This document shows, in pieces, positions 4,829 through 53,460 of a stretch of 64,000 nucleotides of DNA (its first letter is position 1; each line of letters opens with the position of its first letter). This DNA comes from Telopea speciosissima. Taxonomy: Eukaryota > Streptophyta > Magnoliopsida > Proteales > Proteaceae. The stretch is from the NCBI RefSeq assembly GCF_018873765.1, contig NC_057923.1, positions 20,679,913-20,743,912 on the forward strand, given 5' to 3'. The position numbers and the translations under genes are program-made. The notes under the pieces are model-generated. The model was not told the origin of the DNA. It did not search any database and was given only the letters and a program-made list of their open reading frames with translations.

Positions 4829-5390
4829 TAGGGCTGCAAGTTTGGCCCTGTCGGCCTGAACCCGCCCTGAGCCCGAACAGGGCCTGGGCTGAGATTTCTG
4901 GCCCTGAGGGTGGGTTAGGGCTAGAAATTCCTATCCCTGAGTCAGGGTAGGGTCGGGTCGGGTCAAGGTTGAGACTTCGGGCTCAGCCCGACCCTAATTT
5001 TGACCCTGATTTTTTACCTTGATTTTGGCACTGAAGAAATTTCTTTATTTATAAAAAAATAGAAGCTATTACTAATATATAGTTTGTATTGTGGAAAAAC
5101 CAATTGCTACCAAAAGGTCTTGGGTTCAAGTCTCCTCTCTCACATCTTCTCTAGACTTGTTATTTTAATTTAATAATTTTTGCAGGGCCAGGGCCATTAG
5201 GCCAAGCCCGACCCAATTAGGGCCAATCAGGGTGGGCCTGGGCTGGGCTTGGCTCGTCAGGGTCAGGGTTAGGGTCAAGGTATTAAGGCGCTGAATCAGG
5301 GTCAGGGCGGGCCTAGGCCCAGCTAAGGGGACTCAGGGTTGGGCTAGAGTTTTAAAAAGCCCGGCCCAACCCGACCCTGTTGCAGCCCTA
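4829..5390. mobile_element. non-autonomous hAT-type element nested in the retrotransposon leader
   Basis: The 562-bp element starts with TAGGGCTGCAA and ends with its reverse complement TTGCAGCCCTA. It is flanked by a perfect 8-bp direct duplication, GGTAGAGG, at 4821-4828 and 5391-5398. An 8-bp target duplication plus a TAGGG-type terminal repeat is the signature of the hAT superfamily. The body is full of GGGTC/GACCC-type words (for example CAGGGTCAGGG) around an AT-rich core, and codes for nothing recognisable. A tRNA-promoter-like GGGTTCAAGTC at about 5121 hints at an older SINE piece inside. Related copies lie at 17878-18406 and 28774-29220. Confidence 0.9.
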
Positions 5391-6206: not shown

Positions 6207-6412
6207 CAGAGAAAAGCTTTTCAGTTTGACTCTCATCGAAGCTCTCTCTCCGGTCGCCACTGCTACTGTAGGACTAAAGGATCTTTGCTTTTCCGGTTGG
6301 CTCCAACCTTAACCTCAAATCCATTGTTTGCATAAAAAAGAATGACACCCATTGCTGTCGATGATGTCATCCTCGATGAAACCCTGGCCTGCTTCGAGAG
6401 TCAAACTGAAAA
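6207..6412 (+). pseudogene. type II peroxiredoxin 5' UTR plus first-exon fragment
   Basis: This stretch matches the reverse strand of the peroxiredoxin locus at about 20400-20600. The match starts in the 5' UTR (shared words CTCATCGAAGCTC, ACTAAAGGATCTTTG, CTCAAATCCATTG) and runs through the ATG at 6342 into codons reading MTPIAVDDVILDETLACFE, against MAPIAVGDVIPDGTLAYFD in the intact gene. Similarity is lost after about 6412, well before the peroxidatic cysteine, so no enzyme can be made. Because the untranslated leader is included, this is a copy of a transcript start or a genomic fragment. It lies in opposite orientation to the intact gene, 13 kb away, against the edge of the retrotransposon LTR. 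Confidence 0.85.
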
Positions 6413-7530: not shown

Positions 7531-7945
7531 CAAATAATTTTCCAATTTTTTATTTATTTTTTGGCATAAGGTCAGTGCACCATGCATGGTCAAGCACTGA
7601 CCTTGGTTAGTGGACAAGAGGGGGTCCCCTATTTGACGCATCATCACCCACCCTGCATAATGTGAAAACCTTCACCTTCTTTTTTAAACCAAGTTTTACT
7701 TTCCCCTCACTTTCTTTTACTTTGCATATCGAGTCGTGGCTTTGAAAAAACACTGTGAATGGTTGAAACATAAGAGGGGATGGAAGTTTAAATATTAAAG
7801 GGAGACCTTCTCACCCACCTAACCCTTGATTTGACCAAAGTTGCGGATGATTTGAAGCAGAAGAACAAGGGTCGCGCATGTACAAATATGGCCGCTTTGG
7901 GAAATTAGTTCGTCACATTACCTCATCGGGTGGGTGAAGTAGACG

Positions 7946-8783
7946 ATGGGAAACGAAGCAATCTTCGTGGAAGAAGCGAAGAAATGGCTTCAAGAGCTCG
8001 GGCGGAGACGCTTCAACCAAGATATCCAATACATATCGCTTCAAGGTCTCCAGATCGTACAGGCCCAGAGGGATTCGATACTCTTCAATCAAATCCTTCA
8101 CAAAGAATTAGCTGTAAAATCTGATATCATGTCTCATCACCCTTTCTTTTCTACTTTTCTCTTTTAATCGTCTTCTTCACTCCCTGTATCCTTCGTACCT
8201 TAAATTCCCTTATTATTCTTTTTTGTGGGTCTGAACTTTTGTTATATATATTTGTGAGTAGTGTGTTTTGAGGGGTTTCAAAATCTGTGCAGGATAGAAG
8301 AGGGAATTGTCATGTGGGAGCCATAGCTTCCATAATCGATGCAGTTGGGGCGACAGCTATAGCGACTTACACAGGGGACCTCAAAGTCTCTGTTGATTTC
8401 AACATTTCCTACTTCTCAACGGTTAAGATCGAGGTTTCTTCTTCCTCCGTTTCAATTCCCAATTGCTCTTCAGCTTATTCTTACCAATTTGAATTCCATA
8501 GAACAGTCAGTGGTGCCCAATTGATTTTTATGCGTACGGTGTGGCTAGAATTTAGATCAAAACCCATAACCCAATCATCTAGTCGGACACTAAGCAAATC
8601 TCTGTGCAACTGCAGGAAGAGGTGGAGATTGAAGCTAAGGTGGTAGCACACACAGGAAAACTTTCATTGACGACAGTGGAGTTTAGGAGGAAGAAGGATG
8701 GAGTGGTGGTTGCTTTGGGTAAGCAATGGATGTCTCAAATCAACGCCATTCCAGGTCTTCAATCTCTCCGAACTAGGCTTTGA
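7946..8783 (+). CDS. ACOT13-like hotdog-fold acyl-CoA thioesterase, copy A
   Basis: Three exons: 7946-8113, 8293-8433 and 8616-8783. Introns are GT-AG and both fall between codons. The product is 158 residues, usual for small plant thioesterases of the 4HBT/PaaI (ACOT13-like) family, which hydrolyse acyl-CoA thioesters. Exon 2 holds the family core GNCHVGAIASIIDAVGA, matching the plant form of the HGG...D motif; the aspartate in IID fits the catalytic acid. Exon 3 supplies the hotdog strands (KLSLTTVEFRRKKD). No transit peptide is apparent. The ATG was chosen because copy B has the equivalent start and the same NEAI...EEAKKW opening. Its neighbour at 11593-12357 is a tandem paralogue. Physiological substrate unknown. 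Confidence 0.88.
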
Positions 8784-9689
8784 TTTCGACCCAAATTCAA
8801 CTTCAAATGGACAGAGTCAATTTCTTTTTGCTTCAAATTTCTTCTTTTGTTCTCCGAAATGTTCTACTTAAGATTTTTCATCCCACCCCAAATCCATCAT
8901 TGAGAATATGCAGTTCAGATCAGAATGGGCCACAACAGAAATTTCCAATTGTGAGTTTACTGTTTTTAGTTTTAAGTTATATGTATTTTTTCATTTTATT
9001 TTCCAATATACTAACCTTTGTTTTGTAGTCAAACGTTTTGGGTATGTGCCCATCTCCAACATTTAATTAAAAATATTATTTTAGATAGTTTTGATCAAGT
9101 AAATAAGGTGATGGATTTAATCGGGTAGACTAAGGTATCTAACACCTTCCTTGGTCTGCAACTTAACTTTAACTTACAATTTAGTTTGATTGGCTTTCAT
9201 TGTAGCCGTCATGGAATCATGTTTTTATTTTGTACATCCTAGGCCCTAAATCTAGGTAGCGATTCCTCACACCCATTCCCTATCTTTGCTCAAGAGAAGA
9301 GGATGCTTCTTTAAGTGATCCAACTTGCAATTAATAGACTTCCCCCTATCCCCCTTCTCTTCAATGCCTCAATCAAACGGCAATGGGAAGGAAGCCTTAC
9401 AATATTGGAGCCGATGATGACAATATCTTCATCTCCGGCCCCGTACTTCCTCCTTCTGAACAAGTGTAGGAGGAAGGTGCAGTGCTTTGCGAATGGCACT
9501 GGTGAAGTTTTGAAAAGTTTGACTTGTTGCCTTTTATCTTCAATTTAGATCTCAATTGTGTTGATCCTTCTAAAACTTTAAGAATTGAGAAGCACTTCGT
9601 TTTTACTTCTCAATTTAGATCATTCATCATAATTATTTTTGAATACCCCTTTTGAAACAGAGAAAGGGTTTGTGGCAAGAGATCGTGCT

Positions 9690-11552: not shown

Positions 11553-11592
11553 GGAAGCAGGTGGAGTTGGAAGCATACGGGGGAGTGGGACG

Positions 11593-12357
11593 ATGAGAAA
11601 CGAAGCAATCTACTTGGAAGAAGCAAAGAAATGGATAGAAGAGCGTGGGCGGAGATGCTCAAGTCAAGAAAATATCTTCTACCTAATGCTTAACGGTCTC
11701 CAAATCGTACAGGCCCAAAGGGATTCCATGCTCTTCAATTACATCCTTCACAAAGAATTAGCTGTAACTCACTCAGATATCATCCCACCTTTTTTTTCCC
11801 CTAATTTTCTCTTATAGTCTTCTCATCCTCTGTATCCTACCTTCCTTCAATTCTCTTCTCTTTCTTTTGTAGCTCTGACCTCTGTTATTTACTTCTATGG
11901 GTAGCCTTATTTATTTATTTTTTTTGCAGACCCAGATGGGTAGATACAAATTCATTGTAATTTGATTGATTTGCAGGATAGAACAGGGAATTGTCATGTG
12001 GGAGCAATAGCTTCTCTAATCGATGGAGTTGGGGCAATAGCTATATCGATTTACACAGGCGACTTCAAAGTATCTATTAATCTCAACATTTCTTACTTCA
12101 CAACGGTTAAGATTGAGGTTTCGTCTTCCGTTTCAATTCCCAAATGCTTTTCCCACCTGGATTGTTCAAAAACTTGAATAAATCATTTATAACTGCAGGA
12201 AGAAGTGGAGATTGAAACTAAGATGGTAGCACACAAAGGAAAGCTCTCTTTGACGACAATAGAGTTTCGGAGGAAGAAGGATAGAGTGGTGGTTGCTTTG
12301 GGTAAACTATGGATGTCTCAAGTCAACGCCATTTCAGGTTTCCGAACTAGGCTTTGA
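11593..12357 (+). CDS. ACOT13-like hotdog-fold acyl-CoA thioesterase, copy B
   Basis: Three exons, 11593-11763, 11977-12117 and 12199-12357, with the same two intron positions and phases as copy A. The product is 156 residues. Exon 2 carries GNCHVGAIASLIDGVGA with the core glycine, histidine and aspartate positions kept; exon 3 carries KLSLTTIEFRRKKD and ends FRTRL, as in copy A, but is three residues shorter near the end. The reading frame is open upstream, so an earlier ATG at 11473 is possible; 11593 is preferred by alignment with copy A. The second intron is short (81 bp against 182 bp in A). Expected role is hydrolysis of acyl-CoA or related thioesters; substrate unknown. Confidence 0.87.
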
Positions 12358-13359
12358 TTTCGACCTAAATTAACTTCAAACGATTAGAGTCAATTTGGAC
12401 CTTCATTTTCTTCTTTTCATCTCTCCATTATATTTTTGTTAGATTTTTCTCCCAACCCAAACAATTTAAAATGAAAATGAAAATGAAAATTAGAGTGAAT
12501 TTTCTTTTAATTTGTTGTTTTTTCGATTACTAAAACTCAGAGCCAATCGATAAGGTCTCTCTATCAGCAATTGAGCATCAGTGATTGATAGCTCTAATCT
12601 CTGCAAATCACTTTCCAATATACATTTCATGCACCTAGCTCGCAACAGATAATAAGAACTTGTAAGATTTGATAAGAAAATGTGCATTGAATTGAGAATT
12701 CCTGGGTCCTTAACGATAACCAATGACCACTTCATTTGCTGAATTACCCTCGATCAATTAATCAAAGCTTCATCCACATTGATCAAACTCCAATTGAGAG
12801 AATTTCACAAAAATTTGGTATAAAAAATCCATCACATAAGATTTTTAACCTCATATTCCATGGTATCTTAATTATGGAGCTGATTCAGATTCTAGTCCCA
12901 GAGGAACAAGGAAAATAAAAGCTTTTCCCAGAATGAAATTAGAAGTCGTTTCCTATTGAATGTTTGCAAGTCTTTGATCAGACAGAGAAGTCGATTCTGC
13001 CAATGGTTTAGATAGTTCTTCGTTTGTTTTTATTTTTGTTTTTGTTTGGGCTTTGCCCTTGTCTTCTCCTTTCCATCTGCAGGTGTATGAAACATCCTCA
13101 GATAACAATGTGGTGCAAGAAGCAGAGCAATCCCCTTGGAGTGTGTCCCTACAGATTTGAGAGATCATAGGCCTCTAAGTTCTAACCAGTGAATCATTCA
13201 AGTAATGGGACATATTCCTGGGTCCATCCAGGCAAAAAGCAACCGAGCACTCCTAAACACCTCCAATCCAGAAATCTGGAAGGAGGAGGTGCATTGGCAA
13301 AATATTCAAGCATCTGGTTAGAATAACAATCACTTCGACTTTTCACAACACATTTAAGG
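12358..13359. other. downstream flank of copy B, no gene seen
   Basis: AT-rich, with short reading frames lacking family features. Nothing recognisable apart from possible 3' UTR of the thioesterase gene. Confidence 0.5.
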
Positions 13360-13684
13360 AAGTGTTTGGTTCAGTTAATCTGAAGAATTAGAGTCTACGG
13401 AATCTTGATTCTTACAAGCAAATACCTTTTGGTTGATTCTGATATGGATTCTACGGAAGTACAGAGCAGAGGTGAATTCTAACGAAAAACAATTTTTGAG
13501 GTACCTAGTATATAAATCAGAAGTTGGGTAATTCCAACCCTAAATCTCCAAATCGCAAAATCCTATTTCCAAAAAATGGAGACTGCAAGCCGAACGAAGA
13601 GGAACTCGATTGCTTTCTACCTCCAGCACGCCATCGCCTTCAACCTCCAGCACGCAACGCTTTCAACCTGCTTCTCACTGCTCT

Positions 13685-13830
13685 CTGCTATCTCTCTCTC
13701 TCTCGTGCTCTCTATTATTTCTCGCTCTCTCTCTCTCTCTCTCTCGTTCTCTCTGCTCTCTGCTCTCTCTCTTTTTTGCTCTGTCCCTCTTTGCTCTCTC
13801 TCTCACTCTCCATCGCTCTAGCTCTTCTCT
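13685..13830. repeat. CT-rich low-complexity tract
   Basis: Dense CTCT/TCTC runs. All three forward frames stay open across it and give serine/leucine-rich peptides, which is an effect of composition. It resembles the CT-rich 5' UTR of a plant gene and may be part of captured gene sequence inside the TIR-bounded segment. Confidence 0.65.
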
Positions 13831-15971
13831 CACTCTGTCCATCTATGGTGGAAGCAGTGGGTCTAGGAGTCCAGCCATTATCTTCAGTTTGAGGGAGATA
13901 CGGAGGGAAGAGAAGGGGTTACATTGCCCTAACGTTTATGTTGCTGTTGTTCGTTCTTCTTACTGTTAATTATTGTTTGCATTCGCAGAATAGAGACAGT
14001 TTTCTATTTGTGAGTTTTAGTTTTAGGCAGATTCACCGATTGAAGCACGAGAAGCTCGAACCAAGTCTCTCTCTCTCTCTCGCTCTTGCTCTTGCTTTGG
14101 GTTTGTGTTGAAGAAATCGACCAGTTCTGTAGTATATTTTGTGGTTGGCATTGGTTTTAGTTTGATGTGTTAAAATTTCTTCTTTGATGATGCTCTTGAG
14201 GATCTAAACTTCTTCCTTCATTCTGTAATTTTTTTATTTGATTTTTTTCTGGGTTTTGGGAGAAATTAGAGATAGGGCAAGGTTCCTGTTTGAATTCTTC
14301 TTTCATTTTGATAAATAGATGTTGAGAATTACTGATTATCATGATAGGGATGAAGTTATCTCTATAGTTCCGGCTTAAATAGACTATTCGACAATTACAG
14401 TTTTTGATTGATTCATGGAGTGATGTGTATGAAATATGAGTGGAGAACAGCCTTGGAGACGGAAGGTCTGATAGAAAAGGTTTCTGTTAGTGACCATAAA
14501 AAATTTATTTTCAACAAAGGGTACAGTTCATGAGGGTTGGTGATAAGCAAGGGGTGATCAGAAAGGTTTGCGTGGACATGAGCAATATTTTATGGTTGCT
14601 TGTCTGTGTTAGTTTACTTCCTTCTAAATTCTAATGTATGAAATATGAATTGGGTAATATTCATTCAATTATACAAATTGGTATTAACTGTATGCTCTCA
14701 TAAATTGAGTAATATGAATTTACTTCCTTCTAAATTCTATTTTTTTGTTGTTGATACTCCCACTTGGGGGTTTTTTTTTTGTGGTAAGAGTCACAACTAA
14801 TTAGGGTTCTTGATATTACAACATTTTTTTTTGTTGAAATGTATACTTATCTCTCTCCCTCTCTCTCATCAAATCAATGAAATATGATTAAATAAAAAAA
14901 TATATATCAGATCCATAGAAGTTGAGGCTTACAAAAAAAATTAATGGAACTCTTTAACTGTTACTGTTTTGATTAATGGATTTCTCTAAGATAGTTGAAG
15001 GCATGGTTCAGGAAGGGATAAGAAATGGGCTTTCAGGGTGTTGGGATGAGTGAGAAATCATGATGAAAGGATAGACTGTAGTACATGTCGATTCTTGAAG
15101 TCAAATTTAGCATATAGTGCATACTGTTCAATAAGAAAAGTTGTGAAGGTGATGAGGTTAGAACTTCACATTCAAGCCCTGAAAATGGCAGTCTAGCTAA
15201 CTGAGAGATCTTATCTTCACAGAAAAAGAATATTTGAAAGCCAGTGTACTTTTGATTTCTTAGGCTGATGGGGTGTTTCTTTTTACTACAAGATAGATTG
15301 TTGAAGTCATCATATTCTAATAGTAGCCGCCATGAATGATGGGCTTTAATTATGATAGATCATAGGGGTGATTCTCATCAATTTTTCCTGGTATTAAGTC
15401 GATGTGCAACAGATGATTCTCCTCTCTTGATTAAACCAGTTTTTAGCAATCTAAGGTAAAGAATGTGAAGGATTGAATTATTCACCCAAAAAAATTGTGA
15501 AGGATTGAGAATAATTGTTACTTTGTTTTTTACTTGCTTATCTTGGTTGAACCATTTCTTACAATCAAAGTTGTTGCAAGGCATGGGAAATATTGAGAGT
15601 TATTTTAGCCACGTTTAACTTGCTTCTCTTGATTAAACCATTTCTTACCATCCAAGGTTCTAAGCATGTGTAGGGTTGACAGTGATTATAACCATGTTTG
15701 ACTTGTTTCATGGCCTCCTGATTTCAATTTTGACCATTAAAGACTAGGCATAGGAACCTTACCTCAGGACCTTTGTAGAACTGGAAAAAATGAGGAAAAA
15801 CCAAACAGGAAAAAGCAACAAATTAGAGCACAACCTGAGAGCTGCATGAACAAAATGATAGAGATTTTTTCAATTCCCCATGTGTTTGTACTTTTCCCAC
15901 TTCAATTTTCATTAGAATCTTCTGGTTTCTATATTGGTAGCTCCATAGAACTCTACTGGTACTCCTTGGTT

Positions 15972-16792
15972 GTGCATGATGAGCTACCTTTTGCAAGAAT
16001 TGATTTGAAGCAACTGACAAAAAATGACTAATTATCTTATGTCATAACTCCAGTATAGCAAAACTTTGCATTTCAAGGCATTTTTCCTGTTTGAATGCTC
16101 TGTGACAAAGGATTAGCATTCAATCAAGGTTTTTCAGCTATTCTTTATTCAGTTTTTTCTTCTTTAGCCTTTACTTTTTTATTACAAGAATACAGTGTTG
16201 AATGCTTCCAATTAGGGAATTGCAGAAATACCATTGTAAAAACAGCAAGGCTGCTAAAAATGTAGTCATGGTTAATGATGTTGTCTGATCAATTATTTGG
16301 TCTTATTTGATAAGTGACTTGGCAATTGAATGCAGCAATGTGGAAATAAGGACAATATTTTTGCTTACCAAAAAAGAAATAAATAAATAAGCAAGAAAGT
16401 ATTTAAAACTTTTTCATTCTCTGCTACCACAAACTAGCCTACATAAGCAAGTTGAAATCTTTCTTGGATGACTGGACTGAAGCATAGGATCCATTATCAT
16501 TATCTCAGTGTTTTATTGCTTGAAATTTTGTTTTTCATATGAAAATACTAATTTAGGAAGACAAGATTCCCAGATTGTTGTATTTTAGGTGGTGGAAATT
16601 TGAATGGTGAAAGAAAACAAAAAGTTAAGAAGATTCTCTAATTCATTTTGTTGTGTATTGTGATACTACAGGTTCAACTTGGATGGTATGATTCTGGAAC
16701 CTTTGACAAACACATTGAAGAGTGGCCACAACGAGGTGGAGCTAATGGAAGTTTGAGATTTGAAGTAGAACTGAAACATGCAGCCAATGCTG
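15972..16792 (+). pseudogene. chloroplast-type ascorbate peroxidase gene fragment, two exons
   Basis: The clear exon is 16672-16792, bounded by AG and GT. It reads [18 protein letters not shown], then [20 protein letters not shown], then NA. This matches stromal/thylakoid ascorbate peroxidases (RLGWHDAGTYNK, [17 protein letters not shown]), which use ascorbate to remove hydrogen peroxide. The distal active-site arginine is glutamine and the distal histidine is tyrosine, while the tryptophan is kept, so it could not act as a peroxidase. About 650 bases upstream, 15972-16031 reads ARIDLKQLTKND, weakly like the preceding exon (AxEDIKxLLxTK). No transit peptide, haem-ligand histidine exon or later exons were found. 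It lies inside the TIR-bounded segment. Confidence 0.8.
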
Positions 16793-16958
16793 GTAAGGAT
16801 TCTTCGTTGTTCATAATCTTATCTGGCAGCACTGAACTATACCTGATTGTATATATTGTATTCTAGAACTTTAGGACTGTGTCTTCCCAACATCATGAAT
16901 GTCAAGGTTTTGTGGCAAGGTCTCAGGGTTATTTGTAAATTCCAAGCTCCATTTGATA

Positions 16959-17035
16959 GGTCTTTAGCTCAAATTGGTAGAGCACTTGGAATATGAGCAT
17001 GTTCCAGGGATGGTGGTTCGAATCCACCAAGGCCC
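16959..17035 (+). tRNA. tRNA-like sequence, probably not a working tRNA
   Basis: Acceptor halves GGTCTTT and AAGGCCC pair with one mismatch. The D stem GCTC/GAGC is intact, and the T arm is perfect: GGTGG, TTCGAAT, CCACC. It holds an A-box-like and an exact B-box sequence (GGTTCGAATCC), and TTTTT follows at once as a Pol III stop. The anticodon region is wrong: the CTTGG/CCAGG stem encloses about 14 bases in place of 7, and that region folds into its own hairpin. It is either a decayed tRNA, a tRNA with a tiny insert, or the head of a SINE. No amino acid is assigned. Confidence 0.5.
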
Positions 17036-17877
17036 TTTTTACCCAAATGTTCATAACATAGTTAATTATGACAATAATTTACACAATTTTAAGTGGTGTT
17101 CTGCATTATCTTTTTCTTTCTCACACATCAATTTTTTTCTTTGGTATAGATGGATCACAAAAAGATGTCATAGACATTGTTCAAAAGCTTGACTTACAAA
17201 GGAGACAATTAAAACCATGTGTGGGTTTTTTGATGTGTTCGGTTTTTTTTACAACTTGGTATTTGGACTATAATAACTCTTCATTTCATGGATTACAATT
17301 TTCTTTTTGTTTTTTAGCTGCGTCTTTGGATAATGATATTTATCATTATTAGAAGTAAGAATTTAGTGATTGTGGTGGACTGTTCACATTTTTTTATTTA
17401 TGTTGGATTGCAAAGTAATGGCACAATTACATAAGTAGTGGGATAATGTTAATAGCAAGGTAATGGCAATTAGTTTGTATGAGAGGAGAAAATTAGTCTG
17501 TAAAAATTCTTTTTCTTGCATATGTTGGACTGAAAAAGAGTTAACAAATGACAGAAACATGGGAACCAAACAGTTTTTAAATCAGATTCCAATTGAATCC
17601 AATTGACAAACTTAGGATAACCAAACAGGTTTTCATAAAGAATCAAGACACAGAATTATGGTAACCAAACAATTATTCAGGAAGATTCATGTTACAGAAT
17701 CAGGATAACCAAACAGTTAAATTTTAAAGTTACGAATCCACAGAAACTGATTTCATAGAATCTGATCCAGAATCAGAATCAGAATCTTATTCTTTAGAAT
17801 AACTGAACCAAACACTTAGGGATCTCTATGAAGCACAGGTGATATATGTATAATTCCATACCAGGCGTTTTCCAAGT

Positions 17878-18406
17878 TAGGGCTGCAACAGGGTCAGATT
17901 GGGCCGGGCTTTATAAAACCCTAACCCAACCCTAAGTCCCTTTAGCTGGGCTCAAGCCCGACCCGACCCTGACTCAGGGCCTGAAAAATCCAACCCTAAC
18001 CCGCCCCTCAGGGTCGGGCCCGGCTGAGGAAGAAGGAAATGCATGGGCTGAAATGGGACAGGGAGAAACTTTTCAATTTTACATAAAATAACACTAATAA
18101 AATGTATTATATCACTTATTATCTTCATATATAATATATTATATAACAAACTGTGGTTGAAGTTTAAAGTTTGTAATATATATATTATATTAATATATAT
18201 TCTGTAGTATAACTTAAAATAGGGTCAAACCGGGCTAGGCTAAGCTTAGCCCAAGGCCTCAACCCTGGTCTGAACCGACCCTAACTTAGGGCCAAAAATT
18301 TCTAATCCTGTCCCACTCTCAAGGCCAAATATCTCAACCCAGACCCTATTCGACCTCAGGACAAGCCAAGGCAAGTTCAGGCCAACAGGCCAAACTTGCA
18401 CCCCTA
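17878..18406. mobile_element. hAT-type element, same family as 4829-5390, inverted
   Basis: It begins TAGGGCTGCAACAGGGTC and ends AACTTGCACCCCTA. These two ends match the right and left ends of the 4829 element, so it is an inverted copy. The body has the same AT-rich centre between blocks of GGGTCGGG / CCCGACCC words. Eight bases on each side do not match, so the target duplication has decayed or the ends are slightly off. Confidence 0.75.
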
Positions 18407-18982: not shown

Positions 18983-20420
18983 TCACAAAGCCTTGAGAAT
19001 TTCTTCTGCACTGGAGACTGTGAACTCTCCTCCCGCTTCAACATTAGCTACTTTCACCTTGAGGTCGTCAACCAAGAGAGCAAACCTGCGAGACCGGGTT
19101 CCAAGTCCTTTCTCTGCAAGGTCAAGCTCAAGCCCCATGGCTTTAGTGTAGTTGGCAGAGCCATCAGCAAGGAACTTCACATGTTTGTTGTCTGGGTACG
19201 TCTTTGCCCATGCCTTCATCACAAAGGGATCGTTCACTGCAATTAGATAAAATCAGGGTCAGACATAAATACTCGTTAAATTCATTCCCCAGTTCCTCCA
19301 GAGGAACCTGTGTTCTTCATCCTACATTAACCAGAGAAGATAAGATAGCATGTTCTACAGTACATATGCATCAAGACAAACAATAAGAGATTCTGCTTTT
19401 AGGATTGTAATTAGATTGCAATGTCTTTGAAATGTCAATGTGATTGGAAGAAACCCTAGAGCCTTGAGAAATTTCTTCTTTTCACACAAACACAAACACA
19501 AACACAAACACATACCTATGTCTATGCATGAATTATTGTCATGGGAGATAAAGAACCACTAATAAACAGGTTGAATGGGTTTCTGCAAGAAAGCCTGGGA
19601 AGGACGAGGAGGACACAATTGTATAAGAGGAACCTCTGAGGATCAAAAGATGAGAACAGAAAAAAATAGTAAGCCCTAAAAAATCTGAAAATGAGGAGAA
19701 GGGAAATTACCACTAATAAGCAGAATTTCAGCAACGCCCTTTGCCTTGAGCACTTCTGCGCTCTCAATGAAGCCTGGCACATGCTTCATGCTGCAAGAAT
19801 CCAGAGCAGACATTTGATACATGAAATTTATACCAGTATAATTAAGTGGGGAAATGGTACTCAAGCAAAGAACAAAATTCAATTCCAATTGTAGTAAATA
19901 AGGAAAATAAAATGGAAAAGAAATGGGAAAAACCCTAATCTGTTGAAAATTAGCTTAGTAAGAGTCGATAGATAGATCGTATGGGTCTGTTTATCCGGAA
20001 AGTTAATTAAGTTAACCAGTTTGGCTAATCGATACGTAGCCCCTGCGAAATCTCGACAGCGAAGCCAAGAAGCAAGACCACCCCTTTGCATTCGAGTTTC
20101 AAACTCAAGGGGAGGGCGATGATCTGATGATCGAGATGATATCCCAGCTATCTGATCTGATTAATTATGATTTTTTTACAGTATCATCTAGCCAGATCGG
20201 CTTCACAGTGTTGAGAAAGAAACAAAGAACAGTCAAAAGAATAAAAAGCAGAGAGAAAGAGAGACCTGCAAGTAGGGGTGAAGGCACCGGGGACTCCGAA
20301 GAGGATGACTTTCTTTCCAGCGGCGAGGGAGTGTATGGAGACGTTCTGTAGCTGATCAGACTCGTCGAAGTAGGCAAGGGTTCCATCGGGGATAACGTCA
20401 CCAACAGCTATGGGTGCCAT
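18983..20420 (-). CDS. PRXIIB: cytosolic type II peroxiredoxin (PRXIIB-like), resolving Cys replaced
   Basis: Three exons on the reverse strand: 20420-20266, 19790-19711 and 19236-18983, GT-AG introns, giving exactly 162 residues, the usual PRXIIB length. The product reduces peroxides with a cysteine, fed by glutaredoxin or thioredoxin, in the cytosol; there is no transit peptide. MAPIAVGDVIPDGTLAYFD is the family start. The peroxidatic cysteine is Cys51 in PGAFTPTCSMKHVPGF (split across exons 1 and 2). Residue 76 is Leu (EILLISVND) where cytosolic plant PRXII proteins have the resolving Cys (EILCISVND). The rest, including GTRSRRFALLVDD and GGEFTVSSAEEIL, is normal, so the gene looks functional. 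The start at 20420 is preferred over an in-frame ATG at 20432 by family length. A partial copy lies at 6207-6412. Confidence 0.95.
19485..19513. repeat. CACAAA tandem microsatellite in intron 2 of the peroxiredoxin gene
   Basis: Four to five tandem copies of ACACAA-type hexamers within the intron between exons 2 and 3. Such tracts vary in length between individuals. Confidence 0.75.
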
Positions 20421-20787
20421 TATATTTTGCAAAGCAATGGATTTGAGGTCAAGGTTGGAGCCGGCCGGAAAACCAAAGATCCTTTAGTTCTACGGCGGTC
20501 GCAGTGCAACGGCGACCAACGAGTGAGCTTCGATGAGATTCAAACTGAAAACGATTTTCTTCCGAACTTTTCTGAACTCTGTTACTGTATTTATAGTAGG
20601 AGGCAGACCATTGTTTTTTTTTTCCTTTACTGAATTTAATAGTGCTCTTACATCCGGCATGAAAGCCCTCAAGGAGGAGTGGTTGCTGAATTTGTGGTCC
20701 TGGTGGATCGAATCTCTTATTAAAATTGACCAAACGCTATTGTTCATATGGGGTGACTCACTTATTCCTAAGAGCCATGCCTGGCTT

Positions 20788-25436: not shown

Positions 25437-25494
<58 letters not shown>

Positions 25495-26455
25495 TAGATA
25501 TTCCTAGATACAAAATATGCTAAAAATGATGAAAACACTTTATTATTAAATGATAACCTAAGATGTTGTACAAAAAAAACCCATATCGCCACCAAAGAGC
25601 CATGAAACCCCCAAAAGTGCTCAAATAATATCTTAAAAATGACAGAAAATTCAACCTCTATATAAATTAAAATAGATATTCCTAGATAACAAATATGCTA
25701 AAAATGATGAGAACACCTTATTATTAAATAATAACCTAAGATGTTGTAGAAAAAAACCCATATCGCCACCAAAGAGCCATGAAACCCCCAAAAATGCTCA
25801 AATAATATCTTAAAAATGATAGAAAAATCAACCTCTATATAAATTAAAGTAGATATTCCTAGATAACAAATATGCTAAAATCGATGAAAACACCTTATTA
25901 TTAAATAATAACCTAAGATGTTGTAGAACAAAACTCATATTGTCACCAAAGAGCCGTGAAACCCCCAAAAGTGCTCAATTAATATCTTATAAATAATAGA
26001 AAAATCTACCTCTATATAAATAAAAATAGATATTCCTAGATAACAAATATGCTAAAAAATGATGAAAACACCTTATTATTAAATAATAACCTAAGATGTT
26101 GTAGAAAAAAAACCCATATTGTCACTAAAGAGCCATGAAACCCCCAAAAGTGCTCAAATAATATCTTATAACTAATAGAAAATCAACCTCTATATAAATA
26201 AAAATAGATATTCCTAGATAACAAATATGCTAAAAAAATGATGAAAACATCTTATTATTAAATAAGGGGACAGTTTTCATACACGGCTGTGTAAGCCGTG
26301 CATGTGAGAGGGTGAGAGTTTCAAGGCATTAAAATAGGAGTGGGGTTTTATGACTTTTCTAACTCCCTGTGAGAGGGGACACCACCGTGCATGCTTGCAC
26401 AGCTGTGTATGAAATCTTTGACCATTAAAGAATAACCTAAGATGTTGTAGAAAAC
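25382..26455. repeat. 177-bp satellite, about five tandem units
   Basis: Units start with GAGCCATGAAACCCCC at 25382, 25597, 25774, 25951 and 26130. The spacing is 177, 177 and 179 bases in the later units; the first unit is 215 bases because it contains a long TA run (25438-25489). Conserved words include GATATTCCTAGATA, ACCTTATTATTAAATAATAA and CCTAAGATGTTGTAG. The units are highly similar, so the array is young. The last unit is split by a Mutator-like MITE. Confidence 0.93.
26266..26423. mobile_element. Mutator-like MITE within the last satellite unit
   Basis: The 158-bp insert has ends GGGGACAGTTTTCATACACG and, at the right, CACAGCTGTGTATGAAATC followed by TTTGACC. The ends share TTTCATACAC(G/A)GCTGTG as inverted repeats. 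It is bracketed by ATTAAATAA (26257-26265) and ATTAAAGAA (26424-26432), a 9-bp duplication with one mismatch, as expected for Mutator superfamily elements. The other satellite units show the undisturbed site ATTAAATAATAACC, confirming an insertion. It is non-coding and mobilised in trans. Confidence 0.9.
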
Positions 26456-42551: not shown

Positions 42552-42663
42552 ATAAGGCTGTGTTTGGAATACGTTATCGGAATAGATTCTGGGTCTAGAA
42601 CGCATTCTAACTCGCTTTACAATGCGTTCTAGACCTAAAATCCATTTCGAGAACACAGCTTAA
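42552..42663. mobile_element. foldback MITE, PIF/Harbinger-like
   Basis: The left part TAAGGCTGTGTTTGGAATAC and the reverse complement of the right part (TTAAGCTGTGTTC) mirror each other, and GGTCTAGAACGCATT near the left half recurs inverted as AATGCGTTCTAGACC. The whole 110 bp can fold as one hairpin. The GGCTGTGTTTGG end with TAA/TTA flanks resembles Tourist-like MITEs. Confidence 0.6.
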
Positions 42664-53027: not shown

Positions 53028-53460
53028 ACTACAAGAAAGTGGAGCAATGTCGGCACTTCAGTTGGAGATATAACAATGCTTTTTATACACCCCATTAAAT
53101 ATGTATAAACCGCGACATATTATTTGAAATGTTGTTACCTATAGATATACAATGACTTTTATTAGAGTGTTTATTAATATACATCGTGATATGCCTCATA
53201 TTTACGTCATCATAAATTTATGGGAAAAGAACTATGTCTGGGAGTCTGGCCTACGCCAACACTCCCATGAGTCTATCTCTCTCCTCACCATGTGAAAAGA
53301 CACATCTGCCCCTTGTTTTGAGGAGGAGAGAGATAGACACATGGGAATGCTACGCCAGCACTCTCGGATAGAAAATTGCTTCCCTAAATTTTTGTACACT
53401 ATAAATGCAATAATTTATGCAGCGTTTATATATAAACGCCATTGTATACTTGTATCATAA
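53028..53460 (+). mobile_element. CACTA-like terminal fragment
   Basis: Begins ACTACAAGAAAGTGGAGCAA, very close to the conserved CACTACAAGAAA end of plant CACTA (En/Spm) elements. The following AT-rich DNA continues on both sides of a Mutator-like insert. No matching right end (TTTCTTGTAGTG) was seen, so it is partial. Confidence 0.5.
53222..53384. mobile_element. Mutator-like foldback MITE inside the CACTA-like fragment
   Basis: The two ends are long imperfect inverted repeats of about 60 bases: the left carries CTACGCCAACACTCCCATG and GTCTATCTCTCTCCTC, the right GAGGAGAGAGATAGAC and CATGGGAATGCTACGCCAGC. Flanks TAAATTTAT (53213-53221) and TAAATTTTT (53385-53393) agree at 8 of 9 bases, fitting an aged 9-bp Mutator-type duplication. 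Confidence 0.8.

Follow-up and report, generated by a model that had tools for sequence, protein, structure and literature searches.

The segment at positions 13360-17817 of the Telopea speciosissima DNA analyzed here (a stretch of 64 kb, referred to as the window) is most probably an old non-autonomous Pack-type class II (cut-and-paste) DNA transposon with PIF/Harbinger-like ends. It is bounded by a pair of terminal inverted repeats (TIRs), carries an array of the TIR core motif near its right end and contains two unrelated gene fragments in opposite orientations, with no recognizable transposase. A sequence-only reading, made from the letters without any database search, had proposed a Pack-type element at this place. 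Its description of a TIR-bounded element that holds gene fragments and lacks a transposase has survived the present analysis, whereas a supposed peroxidase exon pair and the view that the ends could not be assigned have not. The Pack-type reading is strengthened because a second, unrelated gene fragment was found in the opposite orientation to the first.

Terminal inverted repeats and flanking sequences

The left TIR (13360-13396, plus strand) starts with AAGTGTTTGGTTCAGTTA and pairs with the right TIR (17781-17817, minus strand). The two arms of 37 nt are 89% complementary (33/37) and their first 18 bases are identical, exactly as the sequence-only reading had described them. Under an independent-base model, the window would be expected to contain about 8e-7 inverted matches of at least 33/37 with arms no more than 12 kb apart. 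The 18-base identical run by itself is less striking than the 33/37 match: when simple-sequence pairs had been removed, which left 7 of the window's 1053 raw seed pairs, exact inverted pairs of at least 16 bases were found at three places in the real window and were also present in 5 of 20 first-order Markov simulations. A gapped match to the right end extends the left TIR to about 53 bp; when the ends are aligned over a greater length with gaps, the score of 106 falls within the range of 979 random pairs (mean 63, sd 15, maximum 122) and is not significant. The list of inverted pairs for 12800-18400 has 24 entries, of which the TIR pair is the longest (the next is 24 nt, 75%), and none of these pairs provides a nearby inverted partner for the tip of either end. 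A 33-base pattern of the end sequence matched nothing in IMG/VR or in the GTDB contigs, a result of little weight given that neither is a plant collection. Longer words from the ends were also looked up in the literature, where no transposon was named in the titles among the matches listed, most of which dealt with plant miRNA.

The AGG repeat that had been reported to flank the element is indeed present on both sides (13357-13359 and 17818-17820), as a candidate target-site duplication recognized from the sequence. It is weak evidence, because a 3-bp flank match occurs in 1.9% of random segments of the element's length, and either a 3-bp match or a match of at least 6/8 bp occurs in 11.5% of them if the boundaries may shift symmetrically by up to 2 bp. 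An alternative duplication, TTA/TTA (13354-13356 and 17816-17818), requires ends that are unequal by 5 bp. Flanks of 9 bp show no match at the equal TIR boundary and match at 7/9 positions at some unequal boundaries.

The core of both TIRs, TGTTTGGTT, reads AACCAAACA on the other strand. The latter word occurs eight times in the 64-kb window, where 1.31 occurrences are expected, and none of 100 shuffles reached this number. Seven of the eight copies lie inside the element, including one in each TIR, one at 15799 and four in a right subterminal array (17564-17715, minus strand for TGTTTGGTT; spacing 55, 44 and 44). The earlier remark that words repeat near the right end is thus confirmed by four copies of an enriched motif. 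All four array copies are oriented like the right end; three of them have AA-N-TGTTTGGTT in common with the ends, and the sequence of the fourth is ACCTGTTTGGTT. No counterpart of the array was found at the left end. The array words are plausible as putative transposase-binding sites, to which the sequence-only reading had likened them.

Gene fragments between the ends

A 121-nt exon of chloroplast ascorbate peroxidase (APX) is located on the plus strand at 16672-16792 (PDB 1iyn, 4.3e-19 over 41 amino acids). It is preceded by AG and followed by GT, and codes for 40 residues plus one base. The motif VRLGWHD of the solved enzyme (1iyn) has become VQLGWYD here (Arg to Gln and His to Tyr), and the replaced residues are the catalytic arginine and the distal histidine. 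When the window was searched with chloroplast APX by tblastn, the only significant match was the one inside the element (next-best E 0.50). Of the peroxidase exon pair proposed from the letters alone, one exon is therefore retained; the other, corresponding to the open frame 17137-17340, was rejected since nothing significant matched it (PDB best 0.24; Pfam SPC25 0.18, below the cut-off). Pfam also misses the genuine exon, which is too short for it.

The second gene piece, absent from the sequence-only reading, is a frameshifted coding fragment of a plant cytosolic sulfotransferase (SOT) on the minus strand at 14340-14562, which corresponds to residues 100-172 of plant SOT. It was detected by Pfam (PF00685, 8.5e-11, 42.2 bits with a cut-off of 22) and in PDB (1q44, 8.4e-10). 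By tblastn it falls into two parts that are read in different frames and match residues 100-133 and 128-172; the identities of the two parts are 47% and 53%, and an SOT query against the whole window was significant only inside the element.

It could be argued that the two ends come from different MITEs, or are solo ends, of a single family, which happen to stand in opposite orientation with 4.4 kb of unrelated pseudogene debris between them and have never moved as one unit. Such an arrangement would agree with the weak target-site duplication, with the lack of a left-end counterpart of the right array and with the presence of gene fragments elsewhere in the window (the peroxiredoxin piece at 6210-6402). 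However, two unrelated gene fragments fall between these ends, the 37-nt pair is the longest among the 24 listed, and neither tip pairs close by; we consider this explanation unlikely.

Remaining interior and search for a transposase

The interior also contains a tRNA-like sequence (16958-17036, plus strand), whose earlier detection by eye agrees with an Rfam tRNA score of 40.5 bits (gathering score 29). Its D and T arms are recognizable and its anticodon arm is over-long; ARAGORN assigned no tRNA type or anticodon to it, and it is probably a relic. A CT-rich tract, previously called leader-like, is present at about 13680-13830 (plus strand), and its composition, the sole basis for the leader proposal, would make it possibly a captured 5' leader. 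In addition, imperfect repeats are found at 15423-15709, with copies at 15423, 15539 and 15625 (a 26-nt family, 73-88% identical, or 77-80% in a second comparison).

No transposase or Myb/SANT domain was detected in the six X-masked frames of the element by Pfam at E values up to 10, which upholds the earlier statement that the element holds no transposase. The six-frame scan gave sulfotransferase at 3.9e-10 and, as its only other listing, RNA_pol_Rpc4 at 0.82. Single open frames gave weak Pfam listings below the cut-offs, namely TM250 (0.0051, in the CT-rich frame), DUF3675 (0.091), DUF4969 (0.15), SPC25 (0.18), DUF4328 (0.19) and DUF4131 (6.4). The PDB search covered five of the six X-masked frames, and for the sixth, where the main SOT piece lies, the query was the open frame 14157-14486; weak listings for frame 1 were three sulfhydryl-oxidase chains (0.035-0.045). 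As a control, we selected three more segments as long as the element; they gave no Pfam match at 0.01, compared with one (sulfotransferase) in the element, a comparison that bears only on SOT-like pieces and is blind to pieces as short as the APX exon.

These searches bear on the proposal that the segment is a decayed autonomous PIF/Harbinger element, in which ORF1 and a transposase were once present and have become unrecognizable, the gene pieces being late additions. The PIF-like core of the ends speaks for such an origin, as does the length of 4.46 kb, which lies within the 1.5-7.4 kb tabulated for PIF/Harbinger elements (six of the seven are at least 3.7 kb; PMC6327408). Yet the same six frames that are devoid of transposase and Myb/SANT matches still reveal a frameshifted SOT, and we regard the proposal as improbable.

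Superfamily of the ends

The claim that the ends are unassignable was too pessimistic, as the core TGTTTGGTT is also found in TIRs printed for some PIF/Harbinger and Tourist elements. TIRs with this core include those of MtPH-M-2 (GYRYGTGTTTGGTT) and MtPH-M-3 (GNSYSTGTTTGGTT) in Medicago (PMC2213677), of OsPIF2 (GGGGTTGTTTGGTT; PMC6327408) and of kiddo, Tourist-D and Hbr (GGGGNTGTTTGGTT; PMC4471910), and the full core is contained in two of the ten Medicago TIR consensuses tabulated in PMC2213677. The core thus gives a hint at the superfamily without being diagnostic, because other families in the tables of PMC2213677, PMC6327408 and PMC4471910 carry related but different TIRs.

According to the rule given for PIF/Harbinger elements, the TIR starts with G(N)5GTT and the duplication is TTA or TAA (PMC2213677). 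The left end agrees with this rule, reading GGAAGTGTTTGGTT at 13358 with TAA before it, and the pattern TAA/TTA-G-N4-TGTTTGG is found at one further site of the window (42553). Read in the same register, the right end is CTAAGTGTTTGGTT, which lacks the terminal G and departs from G(N)5GTT, and the flank at the equal boundary is AGG, not TTA or TAA. On these sequence features, the ends look PIF-like, which falls short of establishing membership of PIF/Harbinger.

Other superfamilies were also considered. CACTA elements have ends that begin with CACTA or CACTG, Mutator elements (MULEs) generate a 9-bp target-site duplication, and hAT elements start with C/T-A-G-N-G, a start that the ends examined here lack. 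Assignment to CACTA was rejected since these ends begin with AAGTG, and assignment to Mutator was rejected since the 9-bp flanks do not match at the equal TIR boundary. In the published material, Arabidopsis CACTA ends read CACTACAA, and hAT duplications are 8 bp long (PMC8903248). The segment might also be a Pack-type element that belongs elsewhere, to a hAT-like or unassigned superfamily. Its boundaries would then each lie 2 bp further in, at GTGTTTGG, and TTAAGGAA/TTAGGGAT would be what is left of an 8-bp duplication. This alternative would differ from the preferred Pack-type reading with PIF-like ends in superfamily alone, so that the probabilities of the two are not exclusive, and we find it quite doubtful: the 6/8 flank match at this boundary makes for a weak hAT assignment, the hAT start is missing, and matches of the 6/8 type are fairly common when boundaries may shift.

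Other repeats and duplications in the window

Several further features were observed in the window. A repeat at 17877-18406 adjoins the right end of the element and has inverted matches at 5266-5390 (83%) and 4829-4987 (73%); it starts with TAGGGCTGCAAC, which resembles hAT-type MITEs. At 42553-42663, TAA followed by GGCTGTGTTTGGAA on the left and GAACACAGCT followed by TAA on the right delimit a short segment whose 38-nt arms are 84% complementary. With TAA and GGCTGTGTTTGG at one end, it looks like a short Tourist-type MITE of another family, and it fits with PIF-type elements having been active in the genome of T. speciosissima in the past. Another pair of inverted arms (27 nt, 93% complementary, 36 nt apart) is located at 53260-53349, and a tandem array that begins in a (TA)n tract extends over 25481-26265 (177-bp unit, 4.4 copies, 93% matches).

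Gene-related copies were seen as well. The 5' part of a peroxiredoxin (Redoxin) gene on the minus strand (20359-20560) is partially copied, in inverted orientation, at 6210-6402 (81% over 204 columns), and this copy is a gene fragment outside the element. The regions 7942-8892 and 11589-12461 are direct copies of each other, 74-81% identical and about 3.6 kb apart, and possibly represent a tandem gene duplication; their translation appears thioesterase-like by eye (4HBT 0.086, below the cut-off).

Relation to known elements and proposed origin

Gene capture by grapevine PIF elements was described in 2008 (PMC2528002), and an annotation of rice and maize reported Pack-PIF elements in 2022 (PMC8903248). 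Among the features of Pack-TYPE elements, the segment shows a TIR pair, host coding DNA between the TIRs (the APX exon and the SOT fragment) and no functional transposase. Like the element described here, the Pack-TYPE PIF/Harbinger elements of rice and maize are TIR-bounded and contain host gene fragments, with no transposase found, as they are presented in PMC8903248; their flanks are TTA or TAA in 52.4% (rice) and 81.2% (maize) of cases, in contrast to AGG here. Pifvine-3 of grapevine belongs to the PIF type and has captured exons together with introns, as the present element probably has, but it is multicopy and some of its copies have ORF1 and a transposase (PMC2528002), whereas no transposase was found here. 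In Medicago, the core TGTTTGGTT is shared by the TIRs of MtPH-M-2 and MtPH-M-3 (MtMaster), and MtPH-A6-4 has subterminal tandem repeats that are one-sided in some elements, similar to the right array; unlike here, the MtPH-M and MtPH-A6-4 TIRs start with G and have TTA/TAA flanks, and the Medicago repeat unit is 60 bp long with another motif (PMC2213677). Pack-MULEs likewise hold gene fragments between TIRs and differ in their flanks, since the 9-bp flanks here reach 7/9 only with unequal ends. Pack-type elements are hard to annotate because they resemble genes (PMC8903248).

In the Pack-type reading that we prefer, a PIF/Harbinger-type transposase acting in trans would bind the TGTTTGGTT sites of the ends and of the right array and would move the whole segment as a unit. 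Host DNA would have entered between the ends at an earlier stage; as neither the APX nor the SOT parent gene lies in the window, the source of the fragments is one that we infer. The captured material would be genomic DNA and not mRNA or cDNA, because the APX exon keeps its splice-site borders and intron-like flanks, and the captured pieces would have decayed afterwards. Mismatches at 4 of the 37 arm positions, the poor duplication of the flanks and the damage to both gene pieces make it probable that the element is old. Nothing indicates that it now has a function for the host, and the captured pieces look dead.

The element is thus probably a new example of an already described kind, to which it would add a chimeric (two-gene) Pack-type member with PIF-like ends. 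There is a slim chance that it represents a distinct TIR family, which would combine a PIF-like core with a 3-bp target of arbitrary sequence, would bear an array of additional transposase-binding sites on one side and would act as a collector of gene fragments. If so, the repeated capture of different genes in both orientations would make this family an exon-shuffling vehicle in T. speciosissima. Should further copies of the element exist, the link between end-motif arrays and gene capture would become testable.
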